In this document: positions 28,763 to 59,500 of the stretch, piece after piece
Layout of the letters: every line of letters starts with the position of its first letter
How positions within the stretch are numbered: position 1 is the stretch's first letter
Assembly: GCF_009371985.2 (NCBI RefSeq)
Contig: NZ_VIKU02000003.1
Location: forward strand, 1-64,000
Source: Pelagihabitans pacificus
Lineage (GTDB): Bacteria; Bacteroidota; Bacteroidia; Flavobacteriales; Flavobacteriaceae
Direction of reading: 5' to 3'
Length of the DNA: 64,000 bases
The notes under the pieces: generated by a model
What the model was told of the DNA's origin: nothing
What the model saw: only the letters and a program-made list of their open reading frames with translations
Databases searched by the model: none
Program-made: the position numbers and the translations under genes

Positions 28763-31600
28763 TTGAATGAACCATTACCACCTTCGTTTACTAAGCCTTT
28801 TCTGTTCCTTTTTCAAACTTCGTATTGTAAGTTAAGGGCGCTCTTGGTCTGTCTTTTTTTTTACGTTCAATTTGGCCTGTCCCAAGAGGCTATTCCTAAA
28901 ATATCCCTTTCCTATGAGAATCGACCGGTGTCGGAGGTGCTGCAACTCATCGAAGAAGCGTCCGGGCTTCCATTTTATTATGTGGAGCAATGGCTTGGAG
29001 AAAAGACAATTTCAGGGAGCTTTGACAATGCATCGGTCCCTGTCATTCTGGAATCTATTTTCAAGGATACGCCCATCAATTTTTACGTGCTCGATGGTCA
29101 ACGGGTAATCCTTACGAGAAATACCATTATTTACGATGAACTCCCAGGCGGATTTTTTGGTAGAAAGGATAGCATCGCGATGGTCGAAAGAACCGAAAAG
29201 AGGACCACCGTGGTCAATCCGGTTTTCTATAATGAAAATAGGACTTCGACTACAAGGAAACTGGAGACCGTACGCATTGGGAAGGCCGACCCGGACAACA
29301 GTGCCCAAAGTTTTCTTCTTCAGGGATATGTGCGAAACAAGAATACTGGTGAACCGCTTCAAGACTTGACGATTTTGGTAAAGGGGAGGGGGATCGGTGC
29401 GGTTACCGATGCCAACGGTTTTTACAGTATCCGACTGCCGGCGGGACAAAATGTTTTAAGAACTAGTTCAATGGGAATTCAAGGCTCCGAACGGGAAGTG
29501 GTTATTTACAACAATGGTACATTGGACTTTGAGTTGGAAGAAAGTCTGGAATTACTCGAAGAGGTTGTGGTGGAGGCAGATGCCGCCAAAAACGTGGAGG
29601 AAGCAACCACCGGTACCACACAGATAGTGTCCGAGGAATCGAAGAACATTCCTTTGGTGCTGGGAGAAAGGGATATCCTCAGGGTGGCCACTACCTTGCC
29701 TGGGATAACCACCGCAGGCGAAGGGGCAGCTGGTTACAATGTCCGAGGCGGAAAAACCGACCAAAATTTAATCCTATTGGATGATGCGGTCATTTACAAT
29801 CCTTCACACTTTTTTGGAATTTTCCAAGCCCTGAACCCATACACCACAAAGGGGGTTGACATTTACAAAGGAAATATTCCGGCGGAATATGGAGGGCGTC
29901 TTTCGTCTGTTTTCGATATCGAAACAAAAGACGGTAATGTAGAGAAGTTTGCCGGAGAAGCCTCCATAGGGCCGGTAACAGCCAATATTGCTTTGGAAAT
30001 TCCTTTAAAGAAAGAAAAGTCATCATTGGTAGTCGGCGGTCGGGGTGCCTATTCCGATTGGATTCTACGTTCGTTGGATGATGAACAATTGAGCAACAGT
30101 ACCGCTTCTTTTTATGACGGAATCGTTAAGTTCAACAGCAACATCAATGAAAACAACGACATTAGGGCTACTGGTTACTACAGTCGGGACGCTTTCAGTA
30201 TTACCTCCGATTCATTGTTCAACTATAGCAACCGTGGGTTTTCATTGCGATGGGACCACAAGTTCAATGAGAAAAATACGGGAAGCCTTATAGCGGCCAA
30301 CAGCCAATACCGCTTCAATATCGATTTTGATGGCGAATCGAACAATGATTTTGGACTTGGTTATAAAATCGATGAGACCGAACTAAAACTCAAATTGAGG
30401 TATTTGCCCAACGATAAACACACGTTTACTTACGGCTTGGCGGCGAAATATTATGGCGTAGACCCCGGCAGTATAGAGCCCGAGGGGTCGAATTCGATTA
30501 TACAACCTGTGGCTATCCCCAGGGAGTCGGCCATCGAATCGGCCGTATACCTTTCAGACGAATATCAAATCAGTGATAAATTGTTGTTCGATTTAGGGCT
30601 TCGCTATTCTTTTTTCGCATCCTTGGGCGCTACGGAAAAACGAACCTATGCCGACGGACTCCCCAGAAGCGAAGGCACCTTAATTGCTGCCGAGGCGGTC
30701 GACGGCGGCGATGTCATTGCAACCTATGGTGGACCCGAAATAAGGGCTTCGGCTAGGTATTTCTTAGGTCCCGACTTATCGGTAAAGGCAAGCTTTAACA
30801 GCGGCTATCAGTTTATCCATACGCTTTCAAACAATACCACCGTTTCCCCTATAGACACTTGGAAACTTTCGGATAACAATATCGAACCCCAAACGGGTAA
30901 TCAGTATTCCCTGGGATTCTACAAGAATTTAAAGGAGAACGAATACGAAATTAGTTTGGAAGGCTATTACAAAACCTCCAAAAATGTATTGGATTTCAAG
31001 ACCGGGGCGCAATTACTTTTGAATCAAACCATTGAGACCGAGGTGTTACAAGGCAACGGGAGGGCTTATGGAGTTGAGTTTTTGATTCGAAAAGACAAAG
31101 GGAAACTGAATGGTTGGTTGGGGTACACCTATAGCCGGTCGCTGATTCAGTTCGATAGTGAATTTAGCGAGGAACGCATCAATAATGGGGAGTTCTTTCC
31201 TTCCAACTTTGACAAGCCCCACGATATTAGCCTAGTTGCCAATTACAAGTTTACACGTAGGTATAGCCTTTCCGCGAATTTCGTATATCAGACGGGGCGG
31301 CCAGTGACCTATCCCATCGGCACCTATCAATTTAACAACTCCGAGTTTGTTTTCTACAGCAATCGCAATGAGTTTCGCATACCGGACTATTATCGCTTAG
31401 ATCTAGGTATCAACATAGAGGGGAATCATCGAATCAAGAAGTTCGCCCATAGTTTTTGGACGATTTCCGTGTATAACGTGCTGGGCAGAAACAATCCCTA
31501 TTCGGTCTTCTTCGTAACGGAAGAAGGGGAGGTAAAGGCATTGCAGAGTTCCATTTTCGCTATTCCAATTCCTTCCATTACATATAATTTTAAGTTTTAA
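28763..31600 (+). CDS. TonB-dependent outer-membrane receptor with STN and carboxypeptidase-like domains
   Basis: 945 residues. No in-frame ATG precedes the signal sequence, so TTG at 28763 is the likely start. Signal helix about 25-41 (LLVCLFFYVQFGLS). STN domain about 48-118 (ISLSYENRPVSEVLQLIEEA, ISGSFDNASVPVILESIF). Carboxypeptidase-regulatory-like beta sandwich about 185-260 (GYVRNKNTGEPLQDLTILVKG). Plug about 290-395 (GYNVRGGKTDQNLILLDDAVIYNPSHFFG broken in two motifs: NVRGG and LLDD). The rest is a 22-strand barrel. STN domains in FecA relatives signal to FecR anti-sigma factors, yet none is nearby. First gene of a six-gene cluster with four DUF4249 lipoproteins. Substrate unknown. Confidence 0.92.
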   Translation: MNEPLPPSFTKPFLFLFQTSYCKLRALLVCLFFYVQFGLSQEAIPKISLSYENRPVSEVLQLIEEASGLPFYYVEQWLGEKTISGSFDNASVPVILESIFKDTPINFYVLDGQRVILTRNTIIYDELPGGFFGRKDSIAMVERTEKRTTVVNPVFYNENRTSTTRKLETVRIGKADPDNSAQSFLLQGYVRNKNTGEPLQDLTILVKGRGIGAVTDANGFYSIRLPAGQNVLRTSSMGIQGSEREVVIYNNGTLDFELEESLELLEEVVVEADAAKNVEEATTGTTQIVSEESKNIPLVLGERDILRVATTLPGITTAGEGAAGYNVRGGKTDQNLILLDDAVIYNPSHFFGIFQALNPYTTKGVDIYKGNIPAEYGGRLSSVFDIETKDGNVEKFAGEASIGPVTANIALEIPLKKEKSSLVVGGRGAYSDWILRSLDDEQLSNSTASFYDGIVKFNSNINENNDIRATGYYSRDAFSITSDSLFNYSNRGFSLRWDHKFNEKNTGSLIAANSQYRFNIDFDGESNNDFGLGYKIDETELKLKLRYLPNDKHTFTYGLAAKYYGVDPGSIEPEGSNSIIQPVAIPRESAIESAVYLSDEYQISDKLLFDLGLRYSFFASLGATEKRTYADGLPRSEGTLIAAEAVDGGDVIATYGGPEIRASARYFLGPDLSVKASFNSGYQFIHTLSNNTTVSPIDTWKLSDNNIEPQTGNQYSLGFYKNLKENEYEISLEGYYKTSKNVLDFKTGAQLLLNQTIETEVLQGNGRAYGVEFLIRKDKGKLNGWLGYTYSRSLIQFDSEFSEERINNGEFFPSNFDKPHDISLVANYKFTRRYSLSANFVYQTGRPVTYPIGTYQFNNSEFVFYSNRNEFRIPDYYRLDLGINIEGNHRIKKFAHSFWTISVYNVLGRNNPYSVFFVTEEGEVKALQSSIFAIPIPSITYNFKF

Positions 31601-31605
31601 GGCAG

Positions 31606-32871
31606 ATGCTAGTGTTGAAAAGCAAGAAAACATACCTGTTATTTTTGCCGATAGTGGTTGGCTTCTTACTCGCTGGCTGTATCGAACCTTTCAATGCCAC
31701 GACAGAAAAATTCGAGGATGTCTTGGTTGTCGATGCACTTTTGACCGACGAAATGAAGCGGCAAAAAGTGGTATTGCAAAGAGCCTTCCGTTTTGAGGAA
31801 ACCGATCCCCAAGGAGAGACCAATGCGATTGTTAAGGTAGTCGATGGCAACGGAAACGCCTATGATTATGAGGAAACCGACCCCGGTGTCTATCTCTCTC
31901 AAACTGAATTTGCGGCCCAACAAAATGACTCCTACGAATTGGAGATCAACACTTTCGATGGACGCACGTATCGCTCGATTACTGTTGGAACGCCCAGACA
32001 AGTGCCAATCACCGATTTGACGGCGAAAAGAATGGTGGATGATTCGGGGGAAGAAGGTGTAGGTATTTTACTCGACAATGAGGCCAGTTCCTCCGAACCG
32101 ACCTTTTTCCGCTACGAATACGACGAGACTTATAAGATTATTGCTCCAAGATGGGACCCTTTTGAATTCGAGATTGTCCATTATGTAGCCTGTGATACCA
32201 TTCCCTATCAAGTTGATATAAAACCGCGTACCCAAGAGCAACGAGTTTGTTTTGGTAATGCAGCTTCCAGAAAGCTTATTCAGGTTACTACCACGGACCT
32301 CACAAAAAGCCAGGTCGATGATTTTCAGGTACATTTTTTGAACCGAGACAATTATATCATCTCACATCGTTACAGCATTGAAGTACGGCAGTATTCACAG
32401 ACGCCCGACGCTTATTCCTTTTATCAGCGGCTCGACGATTTTTCGTCGTCGGACAACATATTTTCACAGGTACAACCTGGTTTTTTCCAGGGGAACGTTT
32501 TTTCTGTCGACGACGAAAATGAAAAGGTATTGGGTTTTTTTGAGGTGGCATCGGTTTCTTCCCAACGCCTTTATTTCAATTATGCAGACCTTTTTCCCGA
32601 GGAACCATTGCCACCGTATGCTATTAACTGTGAAACCCCAAGAAGTCCGCCACTTTACGGTAGGGCATATCATTGTTTGGACTATTTGGTCTGTGACGGC
32701 AATTGTGATTCGCCCCTCATCGAGGCTATCATAGCAGGTTTGATTACTTATGCCGGCGTAAATGAGAATCCCGGCATCGATATGGGTCCTTATTTCACAT
32801 GGCCGAGCCCCTGCGGCGATTGTACAAAGCTTGGTAGTAATGTGGTACCGGATTTTTGGGCGGAGGAATGA
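31606..32871 (+). CDS. DUF4249 outer-membrane lipoprotein, copy 1
   Basis: 421 residues. A lipoprotein signal ends in LLAGC (Cys near 25), followed by IEPF. The internal signatures shared with the next three genes are DETYKIIAPRW, EQRVCF, ISHRYSIEVRQYSQ, FSQVQPGFFQGNV and LYFNYADLFP. The C-terminus carries CGDCTKLGSNVVPDFW. DUF4249 proteins are Bacteroidota surface lipoproteins commonly beside TonB-dependent receptors, and may act as ligand-binding lids like SusD. It starts five bases after the receptor stop and its own stop overlaps the next gene as ATGA. Confidence 0.9.
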   Translation: MLVLKSKKTYLLFLPIVVGFLLAGCIEPFNATTEKFEDVLVVDALLTDEMKRQKVVLQRAFRFEETDPQGETNAIVKVVDGNGNAYDYEETDPGVYLSQTEFAAQQNDSYELEINTFDGRTYRSITVGTPRQVPITDLTAKRMVDDSGEEGVGILLDNEASSSEPTFFRYEYDETYKIIAPRWDPFEFEIVHYVACDTIPYQVDIKPRTQEQRVCFGNAASRKLIQVTTTDLTKSQVDDFQVHFLNRDNYIISHRYSIEVRQYSQTPDAYSFYQRLDDFSSSDNIFSQVQPGFFQGNVFSVDDENEKVLGFFEVASVSSQRLYFNYADLFPEEPLPPYAINCETPRSPPLYGRAYHCLDYLVCDGNCDSPLIEAIIAGLITYAGVNENPGIDMGPYFTWPSPCGDCTKLGSNVVPDFWAEE

Positions 32872-34148
32872 AAAGGAATGCTATGAAAAAAGGAATTTTT
32901 TATGGATTAACGTTGGTTTTGTTCACGGGGTGTATCGAGCCGTTCGATGATCTGTCGGTGGAGGAGTCGGAGGCATCACTTGAAACCACTTTAGTCGTGG
33001 AGGCTTCCCTGAGCGATGAAATGAAAAGGCAGCGCATCTTGTTAAGTAGGCCGGCCCCACTTCAATTTATTGAACCCTTGGATAGCGTAACAAGCAATGG
33101 TTCGGTATTGCTTTCGACGCTTCCGCCGGTGATATACGAACGCAATGCCTCGGTAATCGTGGACGATGATCTTGGAAATCAGTATCGGTTTGTGGAAGAA
33201 GCCCCGGGAACCTACCTTTCGGAAACGGAGTTTGCCGTAGAGGTAGGGGTTGAATATACCCTTACTATTGAAACAACCTCGGGCAATCGCTATGTTTCCG
33301 AACCGGAAATGGTTCCCTCCGGTGAGTCGACAATCACCCGGCTCTACGCTGAAAAAACGGTTAACGAAGTTGGGGAGGAGGGAGTGGCTATTTTTTTAGA
33401 CAATAGCAGTACCAATACCGAACCCGACTACTATCGTTTTGATTACGAGGAAACCTATAAGATTATCGCACCGAATTGGAACGCACTTGAATTTGCGTTG
33501 CGGGGAGACAGTTATCCCTTCGAAGTAATTACGGTTCCTAGGGAACAGGAAGAACGTGTTTGCTATGCGACCAGCGGCTCCGATCAGATAATATTGGGTA
33601 GCACCGTCAACCTTTCTGCCAATCGCATTGAACGATTCCCCCTTCGGTTTCTCCCAAAGGACGATTTCAAGATTGCGAATCGTTACAGTTTGCAGGTACG
33701 ACAGTACAGTCAGTCTGTAAATGCCCAGGGCTACTTCGAGGCCTTGCGGGATTTCGCAAAGAACGAGAACATTTTTTCGCAGGTGCAGCCAGGATTCATT
33801 GAGGGTAACATCAGTGAAGAGTCGGGTATTTCGGGGCGGGTTATCGGGTATTTTGAGGTGGTATCGGTCGCTTCCGAAAGGTTGTTTTTTAATTTTGAGG
33901 ATTTTTTTGAGAGGGAAGGAGAGGCCGCCTATCCTCTTAACTGTAGTTTTATAGGATCGCCTCCTTTGACCACCCCAGGAGGTACATTTCCCCTGTTAGA
34001 TGGGGTTCAGGCAGACCTCATAGAATACGTCGGACCAAACGAGGGACAAGTATCCGACGGAGGACCTTTTTTGGTCACAGCAAAAGCTTGCGGTGATTGT
34101 ACCGTGCTAGGTAGCAATGTGGTACCCGAATTTTGGATAGAGGAATAA
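32868..34148 (+). CDS. DUF4249 outer-membrane lipoprotein, copy 2
   Basis: 426 residues from the ATG at 32868, which overlaps the previous stop (ATGA); ATG at 32883 (MKKGIFYGL) is also possible. The lipobox ends FTGC, followed by IEPFDD. It shares YEETYKIIAPNW, REQEERVCY, RYSLQVRQYSQS, FSQVQPGFIEGN and LFFNFEDFF with its paralogues and ends CGDCTVLGSNVVPEFWIEE. About half of the positions look shared with copies 3 and 4 near these motifs, but the ligand-facing loops differ. Predicted periplasm-exported lipoprotein on the outer membrane. Confidence 0.9.
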   Translation: MKRNAMKKGIFYGLTLVLFTGCIEPFDDLSVEESEASLETTLVVEASLSDEMKRQRILLSRPAPLQFIEPLDSVTSNGSVLLSTLPPVIYERNASVIVDDDLGNQYRFVEEAPGTYLSETEFAVEVGVEYTLTIETTSGNRYVSEPEMVPSGESTITRLYAEKTVNEVGEEGVAIFLDNSSTNTEPDYYRFDYEETYKIIAPNWNALEFALRGDSYPFEVITVPREQEERVCYATSGSDQIILGSTVNLSANRIERFPLRFLPKDDFKIANRYSLQVRQYSQSVNAQGYFEALRDFAKNENIFSQVQPGFIEGNISEESGISGRVIGYFEVVSVASERLFFNFEDFFEREGEAAYPLNCSFIGSPPLTTPGGTFPLLDGVQADLIEYVGPNEGQVSDGGPFLVTAKACGDCTVLGSNVVPEFWIEE

Positions 34149-34149
34149 T

Positions 34150-35463
34150 ATGAGAAAATACGTACTATTTATTTTAATTGGTATTTGTTGCCAGAATTGT
34201 ATCGAACCCTTTAACGATATCCCTAGGGAAGTATCGGAAAGCGGTTTGGCCGGCACACTTGTGGTGGAAACCACCCTTACCAATGAATTAAAAAGACAAC
34301 AGGTGGTACTAAGTCGTCCTGCCGATCTGGGCTTTGTAAACCCGCCTGACAGTGTTATTAATCCAGTGGCGGTGCTAAGCCCCATTAAACCACCGGTGGA
34401 TTACGAACGTAACGCAGCGGTGACTGTCAGCGATGACCAAGGGAACGACTATTTATTTGAAGAAGATGCCCCGGGTATCTATCAATCACAAACGGCTTTT
34501 GCCGCGCAGGAGGGTATTTCGTATACCCTATCGATAGAAACGGATGATGGAGTTCGCTATTCCTCTACGCCTGAAAGCTTTCAAGGTTTGGCCACTATCG
34601 ACTCGGTTTATGCAGTACGTGAGCAAAATGATTTTGGAGAGGAGGGTGTTTTTATTTTCTTGGACGGTAACAGCCCCGATACCAATGCCAATTACTATCG
34701 ATATACCTACGAGGAGACGTTCAAGATTATTGCTCCTGAATGGCGCGTACAGGATTTTGAACTAACAAATTATGATCCCTGTGCATTGCCCGTAATTACC
34801 TTTGATCTTGAAATCATTTTTAGGGACAATGGGGAGGGGAGGGTCTGCTATCGTACCGATGCCTCCAATACCATTATCCAAAATAGTACCTTGGGCCTTC
34901 AGGAAAACACTATTCAGCGCTTTCCGGTACGTTTTCTAAGCCGCAATAATTATATCATCTCCCATCGGTACAGCGTTTTAGTAAGGCAATATTTGCAGTC
35001 TCAAGGAGCTTATGATTACTACCGTACCTTGGAAAGTTTTTCCTCGTCGGAAGATATCTTTTCCACCGTACAGCCTGGTTTTCTGGAAGGAAATATTCAA
35101 TCCGTGGATGGAGAGGAAAATAGGGTCATCGGATATTTCGAAGTAGCCCCGGTTACAGAGAAACGAGTGTACTTTAATTATGACGATCTATTTCCCGGTG
35201 AGGCTTTACCGGAATACCCGGTTTCCTGCAATCCTACGGCCCCCCCCTTAGATCACGTGTCGTATTGTTTTACAGGATTAACCACGAATTCCTGTCCCTT
35301 CTCCATTGTAGAGTCGGTGAACCTTAACCTAATCAGTTATTATGATCTAAACACTGATGGAATCGGAGTCTGTCCAGGCCCTTATTTGGTAACCAATCGG
35401 GCCTGCGGCGATTGCACCGTGTTGGGCGACACCCCGGTACCTGTTTTTTGGGAAGAAGAATGA
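34150..35463 (+). CDS. DUF4249 outer-membrane lipoprotein, copy 3
   Basis: 437 residues; the ATG lies one base after the copy 2 stop. The signal MRKYVLFILIGICCQNC is followed by IEPFND; the lipobox CQNC is atypical, since Leu/Ala usually precede. It has YEETFKIIAPEW, GRVCYRT, ISHRYSVLVRQYLQS, FSTVQPGFLEGN and VYFNYDDLFPGEALPEYPV. The C-terminus reads CGDCTVLGDTPVPVFWEEE. Additional cysteines near 360-390 (SYCFTGLTTNSCPFS) are peculiar to this copy and could form an extra disulphide. The stop overlaps the ATG of copy 4. Confidence 0.9.
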   Translation: MRKYVLFILIGICCQNCIEPFNDIPREVSESGLAGTLVVETTLTNELKRQQVVLSRPADLGFVNPPDSVINPVAVLSPIKPPVDYERNAAVTVSDDQGNDYLFEEDAPGIYQSQTAFAAQEGISYTLSIETDDGVRYSSTPESFQGLATIDSVYAVREQNDFGEEGVFIFLDGNSPDTNANYYRYTYEETFKIIAPEWRVQDFELTNYDPCALPVITFDLEIIFRDNGEGRVCYRTDASNTIIQNSTLGLQENTIQRFPVRFLSRNNYIISHRYSVLVRQYLQSQGAYDYYRTLESFSSSEDIFSTVQPGFLEGNIQSVDGEENRVIGYFEVAPVTEKRVYFNYDDLFPGEALPEYPVSCNPTAPPLDHVSYCFTGLTTNSCPFSIVESVNLNLISYYDLNTDGIGVCPGPYLVTNRACGDCTVLGDTPVPVFWEEE

Positions 35464-36767
35464 TGAAAAAAACGATTGCATACATAGTATTATACGGTTC
35501 GGCCGTCGGTTGTGTGGAAACGTTCACAATTCCTCCGGAGGTATTGGAAGTCGTGCCGATCTTGGTGGTCGAGGCGACGGTAACCGATTCGCTTCAAAGG
35601 CAAAAAGTGATACTTAGTAGAACGGATGAGCTCGACAGTATCGTAAATATTGGTTCGAGATTCGAACCGAGTCTCAACGCCCCGTTCGCCTCGGCACAAC
35701 GGAGAGCCATACGGTACGAACGTGATGCCACGGTGATGGTAATCGACCGTTCCAACAACGAATACCTTTTTGTGGAGGAAGAACCGGGAAAATATTATTC
35801 ACAGGAGGCCTTCGCGGCGGAACAGGGTATGGCGTATCAATTACAAGTGACCACGGCCAATGGGGAAATGTATCGATCGGAATATGAGGAAGTTCGGGGT
35901 AAGTCCCAAATAGATGCCCTTTACGCCGATAGGATTACTTCCGATTTAGGCCAAGAGGGCATGGCTATTTATGTGGATAGCTCCGACCTGTTGAAAGAGA
36001 CCGATTATTTTCGGTACGAATACGAGGAAACCTATAAGATTATTGCCCCGAATTGGACCGCCTTTGAGTTCAAGATCTTGAACGACGGCAGTGTTCCCGG
36101 GGAAGTTCCAGCAGTTGAATTGGTTCCCCGGCAGCAGGAAGAAAGGGTTTGTTACAACACAGAGGCTTCTTCCGACATCAAGTTATTGAATACCAATAGT
36201 CTGCAAAATCCTGTTTCTACAAGAAACCTGGTACGCTTTATCGACCGGTCAAATCCCATCATATCGCACCGATACAGTATTTTGGTAAGGCAATACACGA
36301 CCTCTTTGGAAGCGTATAATTATTATGATAATTTACGACGATTCTCGGGTACCGAAAATGTTTTTAGCAATGTGCAACCGGGTTTTTTGGAAGGAAATCT
36401 GTCTTCGGCCAATGGTAATTTGATAATTGGATATTTTGACGTGGCAAGTATTGAGGAAAAAAGACTGTATTTTAATTATGAAGACTTTTTTCCTGGGGAA
36501 CCTTTGCCGCCATATTTTACAGACATCAATTGTGAACGGGCCATAAGCCCCCCTTTGGGAGACCCCGAACGCGATGGTCCGCCATCTCCTTTTGGCCCAT
36601 GCCCCGAACCTTTGATTCCACGAATCAAAACACAACGAATTGAATTTTTTGGATTTACCGGTAATCCTCCGGAAGTATGCCAAGGTCCCTATTTAGTCAC
36701 CCCCACGGTATGCGGTGATTGCACCACATTGGGAAGTAATCAAGTCCCTGATTTTTGGATAGAATAA
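35460..36767 (+). CDS. DUF4249 outer-membrane lipoprotein, copy 4
   Basis: 435 residues from ATG at 35460, which overlaps the copy 3 stop (ATGA); the longer frame from 35412 lies inside copy 3 and is rejected. MMKKTIAYIVLYGSAVGC gives an AVGC lipobox followed by VETF rather than IEPF. The shared motifs YEETYKIIAPNW, RQQEERVCYNT, ISHRYSILVRQYTTS, FSNVQPGFLEGN and LYFNYEDFFPGEPLPPYF are present, and it ends CGDCTTLGSNQVPDFWIE. It is the most divergent copy at the N-terminus. The next gene starts ten bases on. Confidence 0.9.
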   Translation: MMKKTIAYIVLYGSAVGCVETFTIPPEVLEVVPILVVEATVTDSLQRQKVILSRTDELDSIVNIGSRFEPSLNAPFASAQRRAIRYERDATVMVIDRSNNEYLFVEEEPGKYYSQEAFAAEQGMAYQLQVTTANGEMYRSEYEEVRGKSQIDALYADRITSDLGQEGMAIYVDSSDLLKETDYFRYEYEETYKIIAPNWTAFEFKILNDGSVPGEVPAVELVPRQQEERVCYNTEASSDIKLLNTNSLQNPVSTRNLVRFIDRSNPIISHRYSILVRQYTTSLEAYNYYDNLRRFSGTENVFSNVQPGFLEGNLSSANGNLIIGYFDVASIEEKRLYFNYEDFFPGEPLPPYFTDINCERAISPPLGDPERDGPPSPFGPCPEPLIPRIKTQRIEFFGFTGNPPEVCQGPYLVTPTVCGDCTTLGSNQVPDFWIE

Positions 36768-36777
36768 AACAAATAGT

Positions 36778-38550
36778 ATGAATAAGAAAAATGTAATCCT
36801 CGCCTTATTAGCAGCTGCATCGTTTGTTACCGTTCGGGCACAATATGTCATTCGGAGCGAGAGCGAATTGGAATCCCTCAAAAAACTTCCGCTGGAGAAG
36901 ATGTACCTCCATACAAATACCGCCCTTCTTTTTCCAGGGGAGTACCTTTACTATAGCCTCTACAATATCAATGCGGCGACCAATAAGTTGAGCAGCATTA
37001 GCCGAATGGGGTACGTAGAATTGGTAGGCGAGGATTTGCAGACCGTTTTCAAACAAAAAGTTCGGCTTAAAGGCGGTAGGGGGCAAGGAGATTTCTTTAT
37101 TCCCGTTTCGGTACCCTCCGGTAACTATAAGTTGATCGGGTATACACAATGGATGAAAAATGCAGGACTTGATCAGGTATTCCAACAAGATATCGCCATT
37201 GTTAATCCATATCGAACGGATCAGCAACGTGTCTTGACCGGAGAGGCAGTCGATTCGATATCCACTTCAGAAGAAACCAGCCTGGGCGAAGATCGTTCCA
37301 TTCTTTTGCTGACCGACCGGGATGCCTATGGAAAAAGGGAAATGGTTAGCTTGACGCCTAGAAATTTCCGTGGTCCCTTGGGATATGGTGATTACTCCAT
37401 CAGCGTGCGTCGTAAGGGTTCCTTGAACGCGAAAAACGCCATGAGAGCACGGGAATTTGGAACAAAGTACTTACAGGTAACGAAAACGTTGCCGAAAACC
37501 GTCAACGATTCCATCTTTTTGCCGGAACAGCGGGGGGAACTATTTTTTGGTACGGTAGTAGATTCCAACAATCAGCCTGTGCAGGACGAGACCGTCATAC
37601 TATCCATACCCGGTGATGACTTTCAGCTAAAATCGGCAGTCACCGATCGAAACGGGAATTTTTATGCTTACATCTATAAACCTTACGATGCATCGAAACT
37701 CCTGGCCCAAACCCTGGACGGAGGTCGTGAAGACCAGCGTATAATCCTCAAAAGGAAGCCTTCCATGAACTATGAAGGCTTGCAATTTGGCGATTTCACC
37801 ATTGACCGAAAGGATGAAAAAGCCATTCTAGACCGTAGCGTTTACAACCAAATCGAGAATGCGTACTACAGCGTGAAGCCCGACTCTATATTGGCGATCA
37901 ACGAAAAAGATCCTTACGATGGCGGAACCCCGGACGTCATCTATTTGGATGAGTATACCCGCTTTCCCACCCTGAGGGAGACCTTGATCGAAGTGGTGCC
38001 CAACTTATGGGTGCGAAAGTTGGATGATGGTTCTTATAGCTTCTGGGTACGGGAAGAGCAAGAACGTTATGAGAAAGACTTCGAATCAGATCCACCACTG
38101 GTGTTGGTCGATGGTATCTTCGTTCCCAATCATAATAGTTTGTTGGAGTTCAATGCGCGTTTGATCGAAAAAATAAGTATCCTAAGAGATCCGTTGGTCC
38201 TTGGGTCTAAAAAATATCTGGGCATGGTCGTTATCGAAACCTATGAGGGCGATTATCTGGAGCGCATGGGAACCTCGAAAATGGCGCAATATGACTTAAA
38301 TTTACCGGCTTTGGAGAAGAATTATTTTTTTCAGTCCTATGCCCCGGAAACGAGTGGGGAATACCAGCGAATTCCGGATTTTAGATATCAGTTGTTTTGG
38401 ATGCCCCAGTTCGAAATCGGCAAGGATACGGCTGAACAGTCGTTCGAGTTTTATACCTCTGACGTGCCCGGGGAATATGAGATCGTCTTGGAAGGATTCA
38501 CTACCTATGGCAAACCGATTTCTACCCTAACGACGATAACTGTCGACTAA
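36778..38550 (+). CDS. Periplasmic MG2-like protein with a plug-like C-terminal domain
   Basis: 590 residues; not a named family that I can assign with certainty. Signal peptide MNKKNVILALLAAASFVTVRA. Residues about 35-130 resemble a macroglobulin MG2 domain (EKMYLHTNTALLFPGEYLYY, SGNYKLIGYTQWM). Residues about 255-310 look like a carboxypeptidase-regulatory beta sandwich (FFGTVVDSNNQPVQDETVIL, VTDRNGNFYAYIY). Residues about 440-490 resemble a TonB plug (PPLVLVDGIFVPN, ISILRDPLVLG, GMVVIETYEG). Similar proteins occur beside TonB receptors in Bacteroidota. As the last gene of the DUF4249 cluster it may bridge receptor and lipoproteins; this is inference. Confidence 0.75.
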   Translation: MNKKNVILALLAAASFVTVRAQYVIRSESELESLKKLPLEKMYLHTNTALLFPGEYLYYSLYNINAATNKLSSISRMGYVELVGEDLQTVFKQKVRLKGGRGQGDFFIPVSVPSGNYKLIGYTQWMKNAGLDQVFQQDIAIVNPYRTDQQRVLTGEAVDSISTSEETSLGEDRSILLLTDRDAYGKREMVSLTPRNFRGPLGYGDYSISVRRKGSLNAKNAMRAREFGTKYLQVTKTLPKTVNDSIFLPEQRGELFFGTVVDSNNQPVQDETVILSIPGDDFQLKSAVTDRNGNFYAYIYKPYDASKLLAQTLDGGREDQRIILKRKPSMNYEGLQFGDFTIDRKDEKAILDRSVYNQIENAYYSVKPDSILAINEKDPYDGGTPDVIYLDEYTRFPTLRETLIEVVPNLWVRKLDDGSYSFWVREEQERYEKDFESDPPLVLVDGIFVPNHNSLLEFNARLIEKISILRDPLVLGSKKYLGMVVIETYEGDYLERMGTSKMAQYDLNLPALEKNYFFQSYAPETSGEYQRIPDFRYQLFWMPQFEIGKDTAEQSFEFYTSDVPGEYEIVLEGFTTYGKPISTLTTITVD

Positions 38551-40414: not shown

Positions 40415-41893
40415 ATGCGCCGCTCTGTAACTGTTTTTGCCATTTATGCTTGGAAAGACAAAGATGCCGTAGGCCGACTAATACATCGTTTAAAGCCTTT
40501 GGGAGGCAAAGTTGACCTGACCATTTGGCAAGAGGATCCCATTTATCCCGAACAAGCATGGGCGCCCCGAATACCCTCCCGCATACAGAAAGCCGAGGTA
40601 TTTCTTTTCTTGTTGAGCAACGCCTTTATGTATTCGGAATTCATTAATCAAAACGAATTCAAAGCGATCATCGATCGGTATAAGGAGGGGTCCGCAACGG
40701 TAATCCCCGTGCTTCTCGAGGAGTGTCCCTGGAATACCGATTTTAAATCGGATGACTACGATTTTAATTTTAACGAATTACAGGTTTTACCAGAGGAAAG
40801 GAAACCTATCAAGAGTTGGGGTTCCGAGGAGGAAGCCTATGTGAATATCGCATCCCATTTAGAACGGACCATACTTTCATTTAGTGGGGTAGCGGACCCC
40901 GAGCCATCCAACCAAGACCAGAAAGAGCATATCGAGGATGATTTCACGGCGGATCGGTTGGCGATCCCATTTTCTGAAGAAGAAGCCGAAGCCAAGCGCA
41001 TCGCAGGCGAGGAGCAAAGATCACAGGAGGAGGTTGAGACCGCGAGAAGGGCCAAGGAGCGGAAACGATTGAAGGAAGAAGCGGAATCCAAAAGAAAGAA
41101 CGAGGAGGAAAAGAGGCGTCGTATAGAAGCGGAGAATTTGGAAAAGATCGAGAAAGAGAATCGACTAAGGGATGAGGCAGAGGCGAAGCGAAAGGCCGAA
41201 GAGGCAAGACAAAGCCATGAAAGTGCAACTAAAAAAGGAGTAAAGCAAGAATATCGTCACAGCGATAAGGAGGCAATTCATGCACCATTTGCTGATGGGA
41301 ATACAGCAAAAATTAAAAAATCCCGGAAGAAAACGAACATAAAAAAAGGAGTTTTCGCAGTATTATTTATAGCATTGGTCGCGTTGACGGCACTATTCTT
41401 TTTTTCACTGTTCAATACAGGTCCGGAATTAAAATCAAGTCCATTGCCCGTAAACGACAGTTTGGCCGTACCCAACGACAGAAAACCCAAAATCGATTTA
41501 CCGGAAGAGAAAGCACCTATTTTGAAATTGGCCATAGGGGATACCTATGGGGGAGGTATTGTTTTTTCATTTGATGAGGCCTCGGCTACCGGCAAAATAG
41601 CCCATTTAAATGATGCGGGACCTATGCCTTGGAAGAATGCCATGAATATCCATGAGCAATTGGGTCAGGGGTGGCGGCTACCTACTTTTGATGAATTGCG
41701 ATTGATGTACCGGACGATTGGTCAAGGTGCCGACAACAGCGGTCAGTTTGCCGATGCGCTGTATTGGAGCGCCACTCCCTACGAAACCTATCAAGCCCGG
41801 CTATTACGGTTTCGCGACGGTAATACATCCTATCATTACAACAAGGAGGTGGAACATCGGAAATTTTTGGTTCGGGCCATAAAGGATTTTTAG
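40415..41893 (+). CDS. Membrane-spanning TIR-domain protein with periplasmic DUF1566-like domain
   Basis: 492 residues. The TIR_2-type domain spans about 4-155: VFAIYAWKDKDAVGRL, the WQEDPIYPEQAW loop, VFLFLLSNAFMYSEF, and VIPVLLEECPW. Glu81 in INQNEF aligns with the NADase catalytic Glu of TIR enzymes. Residues 188-270 form a charged coiled coil rich in EEAEAKRK-type repeats. KKSRKK just before a single TM helix (312-333) predicts N-in topology. The outer part about 373-492 matches DUF1566/Lcl_C (YGGGIVFSFD, GWRLPTFDELRLMY, YWSATPY). The layout resembles a receptor: outside sensor, inside TIR. No companion effector is adjacent. Confidence 0.88.
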   Translation: MRRSVTVFAIYAWKDKDAVGRLIHRLKPLGGKVDLTIWQEDPIYPEQAWAPRIPSRIQKAEVFLFLLSNAFMYSEFINQNEFKAIIDRYKEGSATVIPVLLEECPWNTDFKSDDYDFNFNELQVLPEERKPIKSWGSEEEAYVNIASHLERTILSFSGVADPEPSNQDQKEHIEDDFTADRLAIPFSEEEAEAKRIAGEEQRSQEEVETARRAKERKRLKEEAESKRKNEEEKRRRIEAENLEKIEKENRLRDEAEAKRKAEEARQSHESATKKGVKQEYRHSDKEAIHAPFADGNTAKIKKSRKKTNIKKGVFAVLFIALVALTALFFFSLFNTGPELKSSPLPVNDSLAVPNDRKPKIDLPEEKAPILKLAIGDTYGGGIVFSFDEASATGKIAHLNDAGPMPWKNAMNIHEQLGQGWRLPTFDELRLMYRTIGQGADNSGQFADALYWSATPYETYQARLLRFRDGNTSYHYNKEVEHRKFLVRAIKDF

Positions 41894-43970: not shown

Positions 43971-46085
43971 TTAATCGAGATACATATTGTCTACGATGGC
44001 CGAGTTATCGGCAACTTCCATAATCCATTTTTCATCCTGGTATTTGCCGTCCAGATTGGATACATAGGCATCCTTTGCCTCTTCCTTATAGTTGAAGTCC
44101 GCCAGATATACGTAGTACAATCCATTTTCCTTGTTATAGAATTGCCTGGCATCCAACCCCTGCTTCTTGAGATCGTTCATAAATAGGGTTAAATACTTTT
44201 TATTACTATAAACATTTACGATTACATAATAACCGGACTGCACGCCCATTAGGGCTGCCTGATCCATCATCTTGATAGGTAGGTCTTTATAGTCCGGATG
44301 TTCAATAGTATTCAAGCCATCAATGTTAGCTATCTCCGTGGTTGCTGTTGTTGGTACTTTAACCATTGGCTTTTTTGTTGCTTCATTTTCCCCCTTACCG
44401 TCGGTTTCTACTTTAGGCAGTGTGGCTCCTAACACTTGGTTGGTGCGTGTTACTCTTTGAATTTCCTGTTCAACCCGTGCTTTTTGGATGGCTGTCAGCA
44501 CCCCTGTGCTTTTAACAGTGACAGGTGCCTGGCTCGTTGTTTCCACTTTCGGAAGCCTAGCTCCAAGTGCTTCGTTTGTACGTGTAATCTTTTGGATTTC
44601 CTCATCTGCGCGCGCTTTTTGGATATCAGTAAGTACTCCTATCTTTTTAACCGGCTCAGCTGCCGCGATGTCGGTTCTTTTACGAGACGCTTTTTTGCTG
44701 GCTGGTGTCTGTTCCGTTTGTGCAATCGCGATATTTCTTTGGGTTCCCATACTATTTTGCGGTTGGATACCCATATTTTGTTTGAGATCGTTTCGCAAAA
44801 GGGTGAACATGGTCTCGAATCGCTTTTCGAAAGCTGCGGCACGGGCCTGTTCTATAGAATCCTGTCTTAATATCAATTCATCCAGTATCAGTCTATTTTC
44901 GTAGGCCAAGGAATAGGTATCCGCCTCTTGGACCTCCCTTTTTGCCCCTTTTCGTTCCGAACGTTTTTTGGTGGAACGTTTGATGGGCCTCTCTAGTTTA
45001 CTTTCAGGAATTTTTCCGTTTTCAAGGTTTGCGACCAGTTCTTTTTTATCTGCCATTAGCTGTAAAATCTGCTCTTCGTAGTTTCGGATGATTTGATTTA
45101 CCTTCGCATCTTCCGAGGTAGATGCATAGGCGCCCGGGCTGTTGTTGTCCTTGAAAGTATATGCTAGGGATACTTCATGGTTCCAGCCGAGATTGGCATC
45201 CTCCTGGGCAATGTCTTTTTCCAACAAATACCCTAATGACATTTTTTTACTTAGATTAAACCCTAAGCCCATTGACAGCCCGTAGGTTTCATCATATGTG
45301 GTCTGAAGCCAACCATAATTAGGCAAATCGAGCAACAGCGAGCCCACGTAGTCCAAACTGCCATCTTGGTTTTTGCCTAGCTGCACGAGAGGCATTAATC
45401 GGGCATCTTCAAACAAGCCTCTTGATGCCATAAAAGGGTGATTGTATTGGAGGGTAGCTTTCATATTTTGCACATTGAGACCTGTTAAAAAGTCATTGGT
45501 CGTCTGATTGTACTGAAACATATCCTCGGCGTATAAACCGAAATCGAATTTTCCGATGGACAGGGTGATCCCTGGTTGAATGGCCAGCTTACTTTCTTTA
45601 CGTGATTCCGAAATTTTTAAATCTTCCTCGGTCGCTACCACACGATTTTTGTCCAAGCCTTCGTTGAAATAGGTGATATTCGTACCAAAGGCCAATTTGC
45701 TTTTGGCACCCAATTGAATCGACTTGGCATAGTTGGCATTGAATCCAAACTCTTGTACTACTCCCGACCACTGACTGTAAACGCTGACACCAAGGGCGGT
45801 ATGGTCGTTTATCTTATTGCTAAAACCCAGAAAATAGTTCTGGCTGTTATCTTCAAAAGCGGCATACTGGTTTCGATGTAAAATGTTGATATAAGACTTG
45901 TTTTCCCGTACTAGGGAAAATGTCGGGTTTATCAAGAATCGATTAAAAAACAATTGGTTGTGATAGGTGTTTTTTGAATCTAAGTTTGTATTAAGCTCTT
46001 GGGCATTCATGGTTAGTTTACCAAGGAACAGAACAAGAACGAGTAACAAGCCTACTTTATTGGGGATAGTGAAATTGCAGCTCAT
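43971..46085 (-). CDS. PorP/SprF family T9SS membrane protein with C-terminal SPOR-like domain
   Basis: 704 residues from ATG at 46085 (the frame extends 19 residues upstream without signal character). Signal peptide ends LTMNAQ. Residues about 35-320 match PorP/SprF outer-membrane barrel proteins (FFNRFLINPTFSLVRENKSY, LGFSNKINDHTALGVSVYSQ, LQYNHPFMASRGLFEDARLM, TYDETYGLSMGLGFNLSKK). A coiled linker and two near-identical 34-residue repeats follow (483-516 and 528-561, GVLTxIQKARxxxEIQxxTR). Residues about 618-692 resemble a SPOR peptidoglycan-binding domain (GYYVIVNVYSNKKYLTLFMN). PorP/SprF proteins serve T9SS and gliding adhesin delivery. The SPOR fusion is unusual among them. Confidence 0.85.
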   Translation of the reverse strand: MSCNFTIPNKVGLLLVLVLFLGKLTMNAQELNTNLDSKNTYHNQLFFNRFLINPTFSLVRENKSYINILHRNQYAAFEDNSQNYFLGFSNKINDHTALGVSVYSQWSGVVQEFGFNANYAKSIQLGAKSKLAFGTNITYFNEGLDKNRVVATEEDLKISESRKESKLAIQPGITLSIGKFDFGLYAEDMFQYNQTTNDFLTGLNVQNMKATLQYNHPFMASRGLFEDARLMPLVQLGKNQDGSLDYVGSLLLDLPNYGWLQTTYDETYGLSMGLGFNLSKKMSLGYLLEKDIAQEDANLGWNHEVSLAYTFKDNNSPGAYASTSEDAKVNQIIRNYEEQILQLMADKKELVANLENGKIPESKLERPIKRSTKKRSERKGAKREVQEADTYSLAYENRLILDELILRQDSIEQARAAAFEKRFETMFTLLRNDLKQNMGIQPQNSMGTQRNIAIAQTEQTPASKKASRKRTDIAAAEPVKKIGVLTDIQKARADEEIQKITRTNEALGARLPKVETTSQAPVTVKSTGVLTAIQKARVEQEIQRVTRTNQVLGATLPKVETDGKGENEATKKPMVKVPTTATTEIANIDGLNTIEHPDYKDLPIKMMDQAALMGVQSGYYVIVNVYSNKKYLTLFMNDLKKQGLDARQFYNKENGLYYVYLADFNYKEEAKDAYVSNLDGKYQDEKWIMEVADNSAIVDNMYLD

Positions 46086-46323
46086 CTTAGTAAATTTTAA
46101 TTTTAGGGCTATCGCATAAGGTCCGATAGAAACCAAGGGCACTCATAACAGTTCCCGTAAGGATACATGCCTTCCTTGTTGGGACCGCTTAACATTTGTC
46201 GAGAGATTACGGTGTACCATCACTCGACGTTTTTCTTGGGATTGATTATTCAAAGCACAGGAAAAGGTTCTTTGCTGCTGCTACGACCATTTGGGTTGGT
46301 GGTAGCAGTTGCATGATGTCCTT

Positions 46324-47559
46324 TTATTCATCTTCGAATAGGGTAGAGGAGTAGTCGATTTTTTGTTCGTCGTTTAGTGCCTCCAGCACGTCGTACTCCC
46401 TCTTTTGAAGCGTGGTATGCCGCTTGTTTTTTAACGAGAAGGCTACCCGGTGAACAGAGTTCTTATCCCTGCCACGGTTTGATAGTACATAGCCCATACC
46501 TCCACCTTTTTGCAGGGAGATGGAAAAATCGTCATCCTCACTATTAATATCGCTTCCAAGGTTGGCCGACCATACGACACTCTTATGGCCTACCTCTGCC
46601 ATATATACATCGAGGCCACCGAACCCTTTGCGCCCTTCCGAGGCAAAGAACAGCGTATTCCCGGCGGCAAGCTTTGGATATAGGTCGTTCTTTTTGGTGT
46701 TGACCTTTTGTCCTAGATTTTTTGCTCTTCCGACCCTGCCATCCTTTCCGATAGTTGAAACGTAGATGTCAAACTCCCCGAATGTTCCCGGCATGTTGGA
46801 GGCGAAAAACAGACGTCTTCCGTCTTCCGAAACAGCTGGATGCATCGCAGAGGCATATTTAGGGCATACCGGTACCTCTTTCACATTTTGCCATTGCCCA
46901 TTGATCTTTTCAGCGCGGTATATTTTATGAACCAATTCCTTTTTGGAAAATATCCCATAGGCCGGCTTTTGGTAGATCGCTTTGCTGAAATAGGCAATAT
47001 TGCCATCCGCTGTCATCGCAAGGGGCGCTTGGTAGCCACCTTTCGTGTTGGGGTTTTCCCCCACAAGCGATTCATAGGCCCGCTGCATTGATAGCGCGTT
47101 TCCGGTAAGTAATTCACCGTTCGATTGAATCTTGAAATCCTTGAATTTACTGGTCTTCTTTTTGACTTGATAGTCGGATCTGACATCGGCCAACCAGTCC
47201 TTTTGGTTTGCATCAAGGGAAGCTTGTCCGCCGCCCTTTTTCATCAAAGCATGTTCGTATCGGTCCTGATAACGGCCGCTCAAGGTCTTACTTTGGCTCA
47301 CCTCTTTTAACTTATCATACCAAAACAAGGCGGCCTCATACTTTGCGGCCAGAAAGTTGGCATTTCCGAGATCTTGATAAATCTCTTTGTTCGTAAGCCC
47401 CAACTTTTTAAGTTCGAGATAATTGTTTAACTGTTTGTCGGTGTCATTGCCAACGAAACGGTCATTGTTCAAATTCGCCGTTGTCTGGGCAGACAGCGAA
47501 TAGCTGAATAATGTTATTGCACATGCACAAATAACATTGTAGGTTAGTATACTTTTCAT
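46324..47559 (-). CDS. Secreted PD40 beta-propeller protein
   Basis: 411 residues from ATG at 47559, whose signal peptide is MKSILTYNVICACAITLFSYSLSA. An alpha-helical front (TPR-like, LKKLGLTNKEIYQDLGNAN, FLAAKYEAALFWYDKLKEV) is followed by WD40-like PD40 blades (HPAVSEDGRRLFFASNMPG, FGEFDIYVSTIG, LYPKLAAGNTLFFASEGRKG, FGGLDVYMAEVG). The layout matches the N-terminal part of PorE-type proteins of T9SS (TPR, PD40), but the usual OmpA domain is absent. It lies 238 bases upstream of the PorP/SprF-like gene, an expected partner. Confidence 0.85.
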   Translation of the reverse strand: MKSILTYNVICACAITLFSYSLSAQTTANLNNDRFVGNDTDKQLNNYLELKKLGLTNKEIYQDLGNANFLAAKYEAALFWYDKLKEVSQSKTLSGRYQDRYEHALMKKGGGQASLDANQKDWLADVRSDYQVKKKTSKFKDFKIQSNGELLTGNALSMQRAYESLVGENPNTKGGYQAPLAMTADGNIAYFSKAIYQKPAYGIFSKKELVHKIYRAEKINGQWQNVKEVPVCPKYASAMHPAVSEDGRRLFFASNMPGTFGEFDIYVSTIGKDGRVGRAKNLGQKVNTKKNDLYPKLAAGNTLFFASEGRKGFGGLDVYMAEVGHKSVVWSANLGSDINSEDDDFSISLQKGGGMGYVLSNRGRDKNSVHRVAFSLKNKRHTTLQKREYDVLEALNDEQKIDYSSTLFEDE

Positions 47560-47980
47560 AGGGGAAAGATTTTTATTATCGAAGGTATGGGACTCTCCTT
47601 TTACACTTTGATCAAGGAACCGAACTTTAGTGGCTTTTTTCATCATACTATCGATAAAGGGTTAATAATCTTCGACAAAGTACACGAAAAGCGCGCAATC
47701 GTTACTTAATAAAAATTCATAGGTTTTTCACAAAAGGAAGCCCTTTTTTGTTAAAATCACCTGTCAAAATGAATGTTTTTTGAGGAGAGAAAAATGCTGT
47801 ATGGCCTTAAACTATTGGGATAACAGCGTTTTGAGAACTAGTACCGGAAACATGGATGGCTGAACGGGTACTTTTTAGCCGATTTTGTTCGTTTCTTTTG
47901 CGAACCTAGTATTTTTTCATTTCTTAATCAACCTATTTCCTGAAATAAAATTTCAGTTTAGGCCCTTGGGGTATCCTATC
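47560..47980. other. Intergenic region of about 420 bp
   Basis: No gene is supported. A small hairpin with AAAAGG (47732-47737) pairing CCTTTT (47742-47747) and T-runs on both strands may be a weak terminator for the gene on the right. An in-frame 29-codon extension of the PD40 gene (47560-47646) lacks signal-peptide character. Confidence 0.5.
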
Positions 47981-56589: not shown

Positions 56590-59500
56590 TTATTTGCTTT
56601 CCAAGAACTCTTCAAAGCTCTTTACGGCAAGCGCATCGGAATGTTTAAACTTCTTTTTTAACTTTTCAAAATCGTTTTTGGCGGTTTCAAAACGCTTTTC
56701 AATAACCGCCAGGTTCTGAAGTTCGGTCGATGAGGGCTTATCATAACTATTTGCCAATTTGCTAAACAAGTCTGCCATTTTCTCCCGCAATTGGGGTTCT
56801 GCCGCACCAACATAGTTATCACCGGTGGTGATTACCAATGTTTCCTTCAACGCATTGAGTTTCTTGGCGGTCTTGGTATCGTTTGCTTCCTCCGATTTTG
56901 CGATCATCTCATCGAGCTCATAGACCAAATATGCCAGTTTCTCTGTCATATCGTAGAGCTTCATGGTAGTTTCGTTCTTGAGTTTACGGTCCGTCTCGTT
57001 CAAGAGCGATTTGGAATCATACACCAAGTCGAATGTGTGTTCGTAGGTGTCCTTTCCTTTGGTCATGACCACTTTGTAGGTGCCCGCAGGTACTTGCGGA
57101 CTTGTAAAACCTCCGAAAGAAAAGGTTTTTCCTTTGGCTACTTTGGGCTGCTTTCTGGTATAATTCCAGTTAACGATATTGATCCCTTTGGATTTACCTG
57201 GTCCCAACTCGACAATTTTATTGCCCTCCATGTCCTGTATCTCCATAATCATTTTTCCGAAAGTATGCCGCTTGTTCAAATAATACTTTATTTGAGCGCT
57301 TTTTGTCTTATTACGGCCTACAAACTGGGTTTCTCCTCCAAAACTTCCTGAGAATTCACTCTCCTCATTGATTACCGTAGGCTCGCTTTTAAAGAAATGT
57401 ACTTTCTTGGCGAGCACTTCCTCGTTCAATTCCCTTAGTGGTGAAATATCGTCGATGATAATGACGCCACGACCATGGGTACCCATCACCAAATCATCAG
57501 TGGCCTTTTGCAACTCGATCGCGTGAACGGCCACCGACGGCATATTGTTGGTAAACTTCTTCCAGTTGGCACCGCCATCCAGCGTGATATAGAGTCCGAA
57601 TTCCGTGCCGAGGAACAAAAGGTCCTGATTTACGTAATCCTCTTGGATGCTACGGACAAACCCGGTCACATCGTCGGAAATTATGCTGTTCCATGTTTTC
57701 CCAAAGTCGGTCGTTTTATATGCATAAGGATTCATATCGTTTTGGGTATGACCATCAAAAACGGCATAGGCGGTACCCTTATCGAAGGTACTGGCCTCAA
57801 TCTGATAACACCAGGTATTGACCGGAAGCCCGGGAATATTCGCAACCGTATTGGTCCACGTTTTTCCACCATCTTGGGTTACCTGTACATTTCCATCGTC
57901 GGTACCGACCCAAATCACGTTTTCATCCAACGGCGATTCCACAATGGTAAAAACGGTCGTATGGTTTTCGGCACCGGAATTATCCTTTGAAAGTCCGCCA
58001 GAGTCTTCCTGCGTCTGTTTGGCCGGGTCGTTGGTAGTTAGGTCAGGGGAGATTATTTCCCATGTATCACCCATATCCTCCGATTTGTGCAAAAACTGGC
58101 TTCCCATATAAAATCGGTCTGGTTGATGGGCGCTTACCGCCATTGGGGCGTTCCAATTAAAACGAAGTTTGGGAACCCCTTCGGTCTGCAACGGTTGTAT
58201 TGTCTTTAACACCTTTCGGTCGGTATCGTATCGCCAAACATTTTCGGCGCCCTGCATTTCCGAGTAAATGATATTTTTGGTGGGATGTTTTAGCACACGA
58301 AATCCATCTCCATAACCGACCGAGTTCCAATCGCGTGCCTGCACGCCTCCGGGAGCTGATGAAGGCCCGTACCAAGATCCGTTATCTTGCAGACCTCCAT
58401 ACACATTATAAGGCGTCGCATCGTCTACGCTGATGTGGTAGAATTGTGAAAGCGGCAGGTTTTCCACGATTTCCATATTGGTTCCTCCGTCCCAGCTGCG
58501 ATAGACACCGCCATCGGTTCCCACGTACATGATATCGGAATCCTTGATACTGAAAACGATGTCGTGAATGTCACTGTGCATATTGCCCAAATTTTTGAAG
58601 GTCTTTCCTCCATCGCGTGAAATGGAACCGCTTAATCCGCCTTTGACAATTACATTTTCGTCCTTGGGATCAACGACGATTCTCGAAAAATAGAAAGGCC
58701 GCACCGTAATTCCGAAATCGTTGTTCAATTGAGACCAGCTTTCCCCGGCATCGTCGCTTCGGTAAAGACCTTTGCGTTCATCTTTTTCAGCTTCAATTAC
58801 GGTGTATAACACCTTGGGATTCGAAGGAGCAATCGCTATCCCCAACCTTCCCAATTTTCCTTCCGGAAAACCGTTGTGTATTTTATTCCAACTTTTGCCA
58901 CCATCCGTAGATTTATAAAGAGCGCTGTTTTCTCCTCCCGATTCAAAAGACCATCCGGTTCTTCTAAATTCCCACATAGAGGCGTATAGCACATTGGGGT
59001 CTGTTGGATCCATGGCTAGGTCGGCACAGCCTGTTTTGGGATTAACATATAGTAATTTGGTCCAGGTGGCACCTCCGTCCTCCGACTTAAAAACACCTCG
59101 TTCCTCACTATCGCCCCATAAGGCCCCTAATACACCGACGTAAATTTCCTGTGAATTTTTGGGATTGACAATGATGTTCGCAATGCGTTCCGACTTGTCA
59201 AATCCGATTTTATTCCAATTGGCACCGCCGTCGGTCGACTTATATAGTCCGTCACCAACCGAAACGCTATTTCGCGTCCAGGTTTCCCCTGTACCTACAT
59301 AAATCGTGTTATCGGGATCGTTTGGGTCTAAGGAAACCGCACCGATTGATTGGCAATACTCATCGAATATCGGTGTAAATGTGGCTCCTGCATCATTGGA
59401 TTTCCAGACTCCGCCACCAGCTGTTCCCGCATAGATTATTCTGCTGTTCGTAGGATGTACTTCCATATCGTTGATACGGCCGCTCATGAGCGCCGGACCG

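Follow-up and report, generated by a model that had tools for sequence, protein, structure and literature searches.

A TonB-dependent receptor operon with four tandem DUF4249 lipoprotein genes in Pelagihabitans pacificus: a candidate uptake system with alternative surface lids

In the window, a 64,000-nucleotide stretch of the Pelagihabitans pacificus genome (contig NZ_VIKU02000003.1, positions 1 to 64,000), six plus-strand genes between positions 28763 and 38550 encode a TonB-dependent receptor (R), four DUF4249 lipoproteins (D1 to D4) and a protein with macroglobulin (MG) domains (M), in the order R-D1-D2-D3-D4-M and with intergenic gaps of at most 10 bp (Table 1). We lean towards the view that they serve uptake across the outer membrane, with several surface lids acting as alternatives on a single TonB-dependent receptor. 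The one to eight presumed lid genes per operon in related species suggest that different ligands can enter through the same gate. The cluster is best described as a DUF4249-linked transporter in which the presumed lid is multiplied.

Organization of the gene cluster

The original prediction of a tightly spaced six-gene cluster combining a receptor, four DUF4249 lipoproteins and an MG/plug-like partner is confirmed. The quadruplet is not an assembly artefact, as D1 to D4 are distinct and intact and the closest relative of the locus, L054, carries an array of equal size. A recent mobile island was likewise rejected, since homologues of TilS, DsbD, an acylase and ComM lie nearby in 26, 24, 28 and 29 of 71 loci, respectively (window counted), with many of the remaining loci either devoid of these homologues or too short to judge. 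The genome holds eight PF14054 matches in total, namely the four of the cluster and four that adjoin three further receptors; a ninth DUF4249-like frame was detected with a custom model built here in one of those three neighbourhoods (L084).

Table 1. Coordinates of the receptor operon within the window
Feature	Position	Strand	Remarks
R, TonB-dependent receptor	28763..31600	+	945 aa, TTG start; STN-like N-terminus, CarbopepD_reg_2, Plug
D1, DUF4249 lipoprotein	31606..32871	+	PF14054 E 1.4e-40; predicted lipid-bearing Cys is residue 25
D2, DUF4249 lipoprotein	32868..34148	+	E 4.5e-37; ATGA overlap with D1
D3, DUF4249 lipoprotein	34150..35463	+	E 4.8e-38; closest copy in the tree is copy 3 of L054
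D4, DUF4249 lipoprotein	35463..36767	+	E 6.1e-36; overlaps D3 by 1 bp
D1 C-terminal tail	32569..32868	+	Mature residues 298-397, past the Pfam DUF4249 core; CGDC...FW motif
M, MG domains and plug-like stretch	36778..38550	+	590 aa

The receptor and its partner proteins

R matches CarbopepD_reg_2 (E 6e-18) and the Plug domain (PF07715, E 9e-9, 36.2 bits against a cut-off of 23.9) and, at E ≤ 0.01, matches no barrel domain of Pfam. Its N-terminal match to FecR_C/STN is sub-threshold in the window, and among ten relatives scanned STN exceeded its cut-off in one (L059) and FecR_C in another (L010). Within the genome, the top four receptor matches, R of the window included, all adjoin DUF4249 genes.

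With 125 to 140 bits against a curated cut-off of 28.5, D1 to D4 all belong to PF14054, which is their only Pfam match at E ≤ 0.01, the SusD family not being among the hits. D2 to D4 share 43-46% identity with D1, and all four have intact frames and common motifs. The AlphaFold2 model of mature D1 (pLDDT 94.6) is mostly beta, whereas SusD is helical, and a SusD-like fold is rejected on these grounds; SusD was also not among the matches listed in fold searches, which alone excludes nothing. As such, the earlier description of the array as "SusD multiplied" holds as an analogy and fails with respect to fold.

Each of the four carries a lipobox-like Cys. By anchoring on the first core strand, the mature N-terminus could be located in 158 of 160 D copies, a count that makes no demand on the residues after the Cys (the two missed copies look alike by eye), and it follows the pattern C-[IV]-[ED]-[PE]-F-[ED]. 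An acidic residue (E or D) occupies position +3 in 156 of these 158 copies and position +6 in 110, and position +5 is F in 119. In Flavobacterium johnsoniae the consensus from +2 to +6 is reported as SDDFE, and in Capnocytophaga this sequence is reported to direct export (PMC5080379). The N-terminus of the D proteins thus resembles, and is not identical to, a known surface-export signal, and we infer from this likeness that the D proteins are probably exposed on the cell surface.

M has a signal-peptide-like start, no lipobox that we could see and the MG-domain fold. Its translation, read by eye, contains no cysteine and hence no thioester, so that M differs from alpha-2-macroglobulin and complement C3 in this respect as well as in its length of 590 residues and its plug-like stretch. 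M is present in 64 of 66 complete operons, both exceptions being from Algoriphagus, and is mostly the last gene, with some or all D copies following it in six operons (M alignment: 52 of 57 references plus the window).

A further partner is absent from the window. In 53 of 72 operons, R is directly preceded by a gene, here called U, for a protein of about 230-260 residues (for example at L024:9132-10013; alignment of 26 of 52 copies), for which no Pfam match above cut-off was obtained with four proteins scanned. U is missing for all 13 receptors of the clade to which the window belongs (the window, L054, L009, L010 and the Croceivirga/Croceitalea group), and no match to it was found anywhere else in the window's genome; this pattern is most simply explained by one loss. 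Outside the clade, U was scored as absent from four distant operons (L068 to L071), from L045 and from L055, the last of which is cut off.

DUF4249 copy number in related operons

A search with R in a collection of one genome per species returned 65 loci, mostly from Flavobacteriaceae. The final set comprises 72 R operons in 69 loci, namely 64 loci from that search, which were gathered by similarity to R and are hence a non-random sample, the window and four loci from genomes that belong to the same genus or are otherwise related. A 900-bit score rule defined R operons; L066, whose receptor lies in two frames, fell below it. Copy number beside the receptor, the survey of which had been proposed as a check on the original prediction, ranges from one to eight D copies per operon across the 72 operons. 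The 66 operons with a complete 3' end carry one (35 operons), two (10), three (7), four (8, window included), five (1), six (2) or seven (3) copies, with L009 entered by hand as three copies from fragments; six of the 72 operons are cut by the end of the locus, and two of these have eight copies.

In samples drawn more widely such arrays were scarce. No run of three or more adjacent DUF4249 genes occurred within the contigs of 40 other genomes sampled across the phylum, 25 of which have DUF4249. Among 39 other genomes of the family, for which matches at E ≤ 1e-20 were listed, one within-contig run of three was seen (G007), whose third member (E 1.8e-15) falls short of that threshold and which precedes a different receptor type; contig breaks may conceal some runs in both samples. 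These figures support the expectation that DUF4249 genes usually appear singly or in pairs, and quadruplets are unusual overall yet recurrent beside this receptor subfamily.

Several loci show unusual arrangements. In Maribacter halichondriae (L009:12779-18496) the D and M frames of the operon are in pieces, owing either to sequencing error or to decay. At L083:6752-12684, a receptor of another type stands behind three DUF4249 frames (D-D-D-R); the last two of these frames form one 707-aa open frame in the whole-genome search and are split in our own scan. The whole operon is repeated in tandem in L032, giving three receptors, and in L081 an eight-copy operon is followed by a second operon ordered D-M-D-D.

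Evolution of the DUF4249 arrays

A tree of 160 D copies was built (D alignment: 86 of 89 non-redundant references plus the four window copies). Copies that scored below 300 bits, were shorter than 370 aa or lay on the minus strand were omitted, as were duplicate loci and the broken L009 frames. In multi-copy loci, the closest copy lies in the same locus for 35 of 130 copies and in another locus for the other 95. For D2 and D4 of the window, the closest copies lie outside L054, the window's nearest relative, a point against the reading favoured here. In the sets compared by eye (L014/L015, L024/L025 and L022/L027/L067), slot order is kept between related species. Since nearest copies are mostly found elsewhere and order is kept, the arrays may evolve, as the tree suggests, through tandem birth and loss of long-lived slots. 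The receptor tree, in which array size is known for 68 of 72 rows, requires at least 25 changes of that size.

Related D copies are under purifying selection. In hand-picked pairs with unsaturated dS, dN/dS was 0.07-0.17 for D and 0.02-0.14 for R and M, and positive selection on whole D genes is rejected on the basis of these values (at most 0.17 in unsaturated pairs). Between the window and L054, dS is saturated in all comparisons, so that selection on the window's own copies can be deduced only from their intact frames and common motifs.

The Pfam match of D1 stops at precursor residue 321, which is mature residue 297, and is followed by a tail of about 100 residues; D2 to D4 have a corresponding tail, and none of the four tails has a Pfam match. 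Core and tail differ in how they diverge within a locus. When the closest pair of each locus was taken (28 loci having a pair of at least 55% identity), the tail was less alike than the core in 24 loci, by a mean of 11.4 points, and was the more alike part in the other four. In reciprocal best (orthologue) pairs between loci, the tail was less alike in only 8 of 23, with a mean difference of +1.2 points. The contrast between the two kinds of pair gave P=2e-5 (Mann-Whitney), a value that, like the other P values given here, is approximate because loci share ancestry (L038, L040 and L073 are closely related, to name one case). A split into three parts pointed the same way. The C part was the least alike in 31 of 41 pairs within loci and in 15 of 34 pairs between loci (Fisher P=0.008), and 46 of 130 N parts, 35 of 130 middle parts and 23 of 130 C parts had their nearest copy in the same locus. 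The 12 paralogue and 16 orthologue pairs that were picked by hand showed the same trend (permutation test, P=0.0001 with pN and P=0.0028 with pS).

In the five youngest of these 12 paralogue pairs, pS was 0.21-0.42 in the first two parts and 0.58-0.82 in the C part, a difference that indicates exchange among the copies and not just selection. The contrast at synonymous sites is clear only in these five, and in several older paralogue pairs (among them L019_4/5 and L031_2/4) pS of the C part is not higher. In a quartet test, three paralogue pairs combined a homogenised N domain with a slot-orthologous C part and none showed the reverse; four pairs combined a homogenised N domain with a slot-orthologous middle domain, again with no reverse case. 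No pair qualified when the C part had to be slot-orthologous and homogenisation was demanded of the entire core or of just the middle domain. As only the N domain passed the test, its probable homogenisation is a firmer claim than that of the whole core. From our point of view, gene conversion may be the cause of the contrast between core and tail.

Discussion

In the mechanism that we propose, each DUF4249 lipoprotein would be exported to the cell surface and would dock on the common receptor via a core of two beta-sandwich-like domains, while its C-terminal tail may help to choose the captured ligand or could, instead, contact the receptor. M would reside in the periplasm below R, where its MG domains and plug-like part might aid the handling of cargo or of the receptor plug. 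The arrays would gain and lose D copies through tandem duplication. Exchange among the copies would keep the core similar, at least in its N-terminal part, and the tails would stay slot-specific. A more specific version, which we put forward tentatively and regard as possible rather than probable, is a combinatorial gate, that is, one receptor with up to eight interchangeable lids. Gene conversion would homogenise the docking core of these lids, and their C-terminal specificity module, which lies beyond the known domain, would diversify slot by slot. The confinement of the contrast at synonymous sites to the youngest pairs slightly lowers our confidence in this version.

Four other explanations can be imagined. 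An unlikely one is that the D copies diversify as exposed targets on the gate, in escape from phages, bacteriocins or predators and with no part in ligand choice. The lids do change faster than the receptor, as in L014/L015, where R is 96% identical and three D orthologue pairs are 81-88% identical, and variable tails joined to similar cores recall antigen arrays. However, the low dN/dS of the D pairs speaks against escape, and the tails of orthologues are about as conserved as their cores, which is slower change than an arms race would suggest.

We consider it quite unlikely that the copies of an array all join one or several receptors in a single, hetero-oligomeric surface complex. The tight operon with its short gaps and overlaps would fit such a complex, as would the large share of copies with their closest relative in another species instead of in their own array. 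Sister receptors on short branches, however, carry two versus four copies (L020/L032, L029/L031) or seven versus eight (L015/L014), and 35 of the 66 complete operons carry a single copy, so that a fixed stoichiometry is not needed. Between the two options raised by the original prediction, different ligands sharing one pore is therefore favoured over a fixed hetero-oligomer, given that near-identical receptors bear different copy numbers.

It is very unlikely, in our view, that the D proteins are not lids at all and act as separate surface binders or sensors that relay a signal via the STN-like part of the receptor. Alignments of R with the other three DUF4249-linked receptors in the genome begin no earlier than residue 165, and the STN-like N-terminus hence seems particular to the receptor of this operon type, as a signalling role would have it. 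Against this role stand the flanking genes, the scanned part of which contains no sigma/anti-sigma pair, and the report that BT2172 and BT2173 act as a joint transporter pair (PMC11003636). Lastly, that the extra copies are redundant and retained by chance or dosage is highly improbable even with copy number changing as often as it does, given the intact, motif-sharing copies of the window at their level of divergence, the purifying selection on related arrays and the slot order kept between related species.

The proposal of alternative lids on a common receptor can be set beside several known systems. In Bacteroides thetaiotaomicron, BT2172 and BT2173 form a conserved operon of a TonB-dependent transporter and a DUF4249 protein; the transporter subfamily almost always adjoins a DUF4249 gene, and disruption of either gene has similar consequences, the two functioning together as a transporter pair (PMC11003636). 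The window shares with them the gene neighbourhood of a TonB-dependent transporter beside a DUF4249 gene. It differs in that the published pair is named as one transporter and one DUF4249 protein, whereas four DUF4249 genes occur here, with one to eight in relatives, together with the MG/plug protein M; gene U of the relatives is a further difference from the pair as named there. To call the cluster an undescribed uptake system, as had been done at the outset, is consequently too strong. Nor is the idea of a DUF4249 lid new, since PMC11003636 cites a 2023 preprint on lids by Price, Deutschbauer and Arkin, which may cover more, including arrays. A limited search of the literature, with preprints and most subscription papers outside its scope, found neither a variable number of lids nor DUF4249 arrays in print.

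The presumed lid role is shared with BtuB-BtuG, in which a non-SusD surface lipoprotein is the lid on a TonB-dependent transporter for vitamin B12 (PMC10404256). BtuG is described there as a beta-propeller on its own BtuB, whereas the presumed lid here has two beta-sandwich-like domains and a tail and occurs in arrays.

SusCD and RagAB likewise consist of an outer-membrane TonB-dependent transporter and a surface lipoprotein lid, the counterpart of which we presume the D proteins to be. They differ in that R scores far below the cut-off of the SusC/RagA model TIGR04056 (44.3 bits against 368.25) and that the D proteins belong to PF14054, with a modelled fold unlike that of SusD.

In the lid-receptor transporters compared here, there is one kind of lid per barrel. 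A near-constant receptor with two, four, seven or eight presumed lid genes would place the choice of ligand in exchangeable lids, and near-identical receptors bearing different lid sets represent natural experiments in this regard. M and, in relatives, U are further conserved partners for functional work on DUF4249 transporters.

Three other genes or gene pairs of the window are worth recording. The protein encoded at 40415-41893 has a TIR domain followed by a stretch rich in K, E and R, a probable membrane segment judged by eye, and an Lcl_C match that narrowly misses its cut-off; relatives were seen in two of the other loci (L009, L030). On the minus strand, at 43971-47646, a PorP/SprF protein with a C-terminal SPOR domain adjoins a PD40 protein, and the region 56590-59616 encodes a protein of 1008 aa with sortilin-like and BNR matches.
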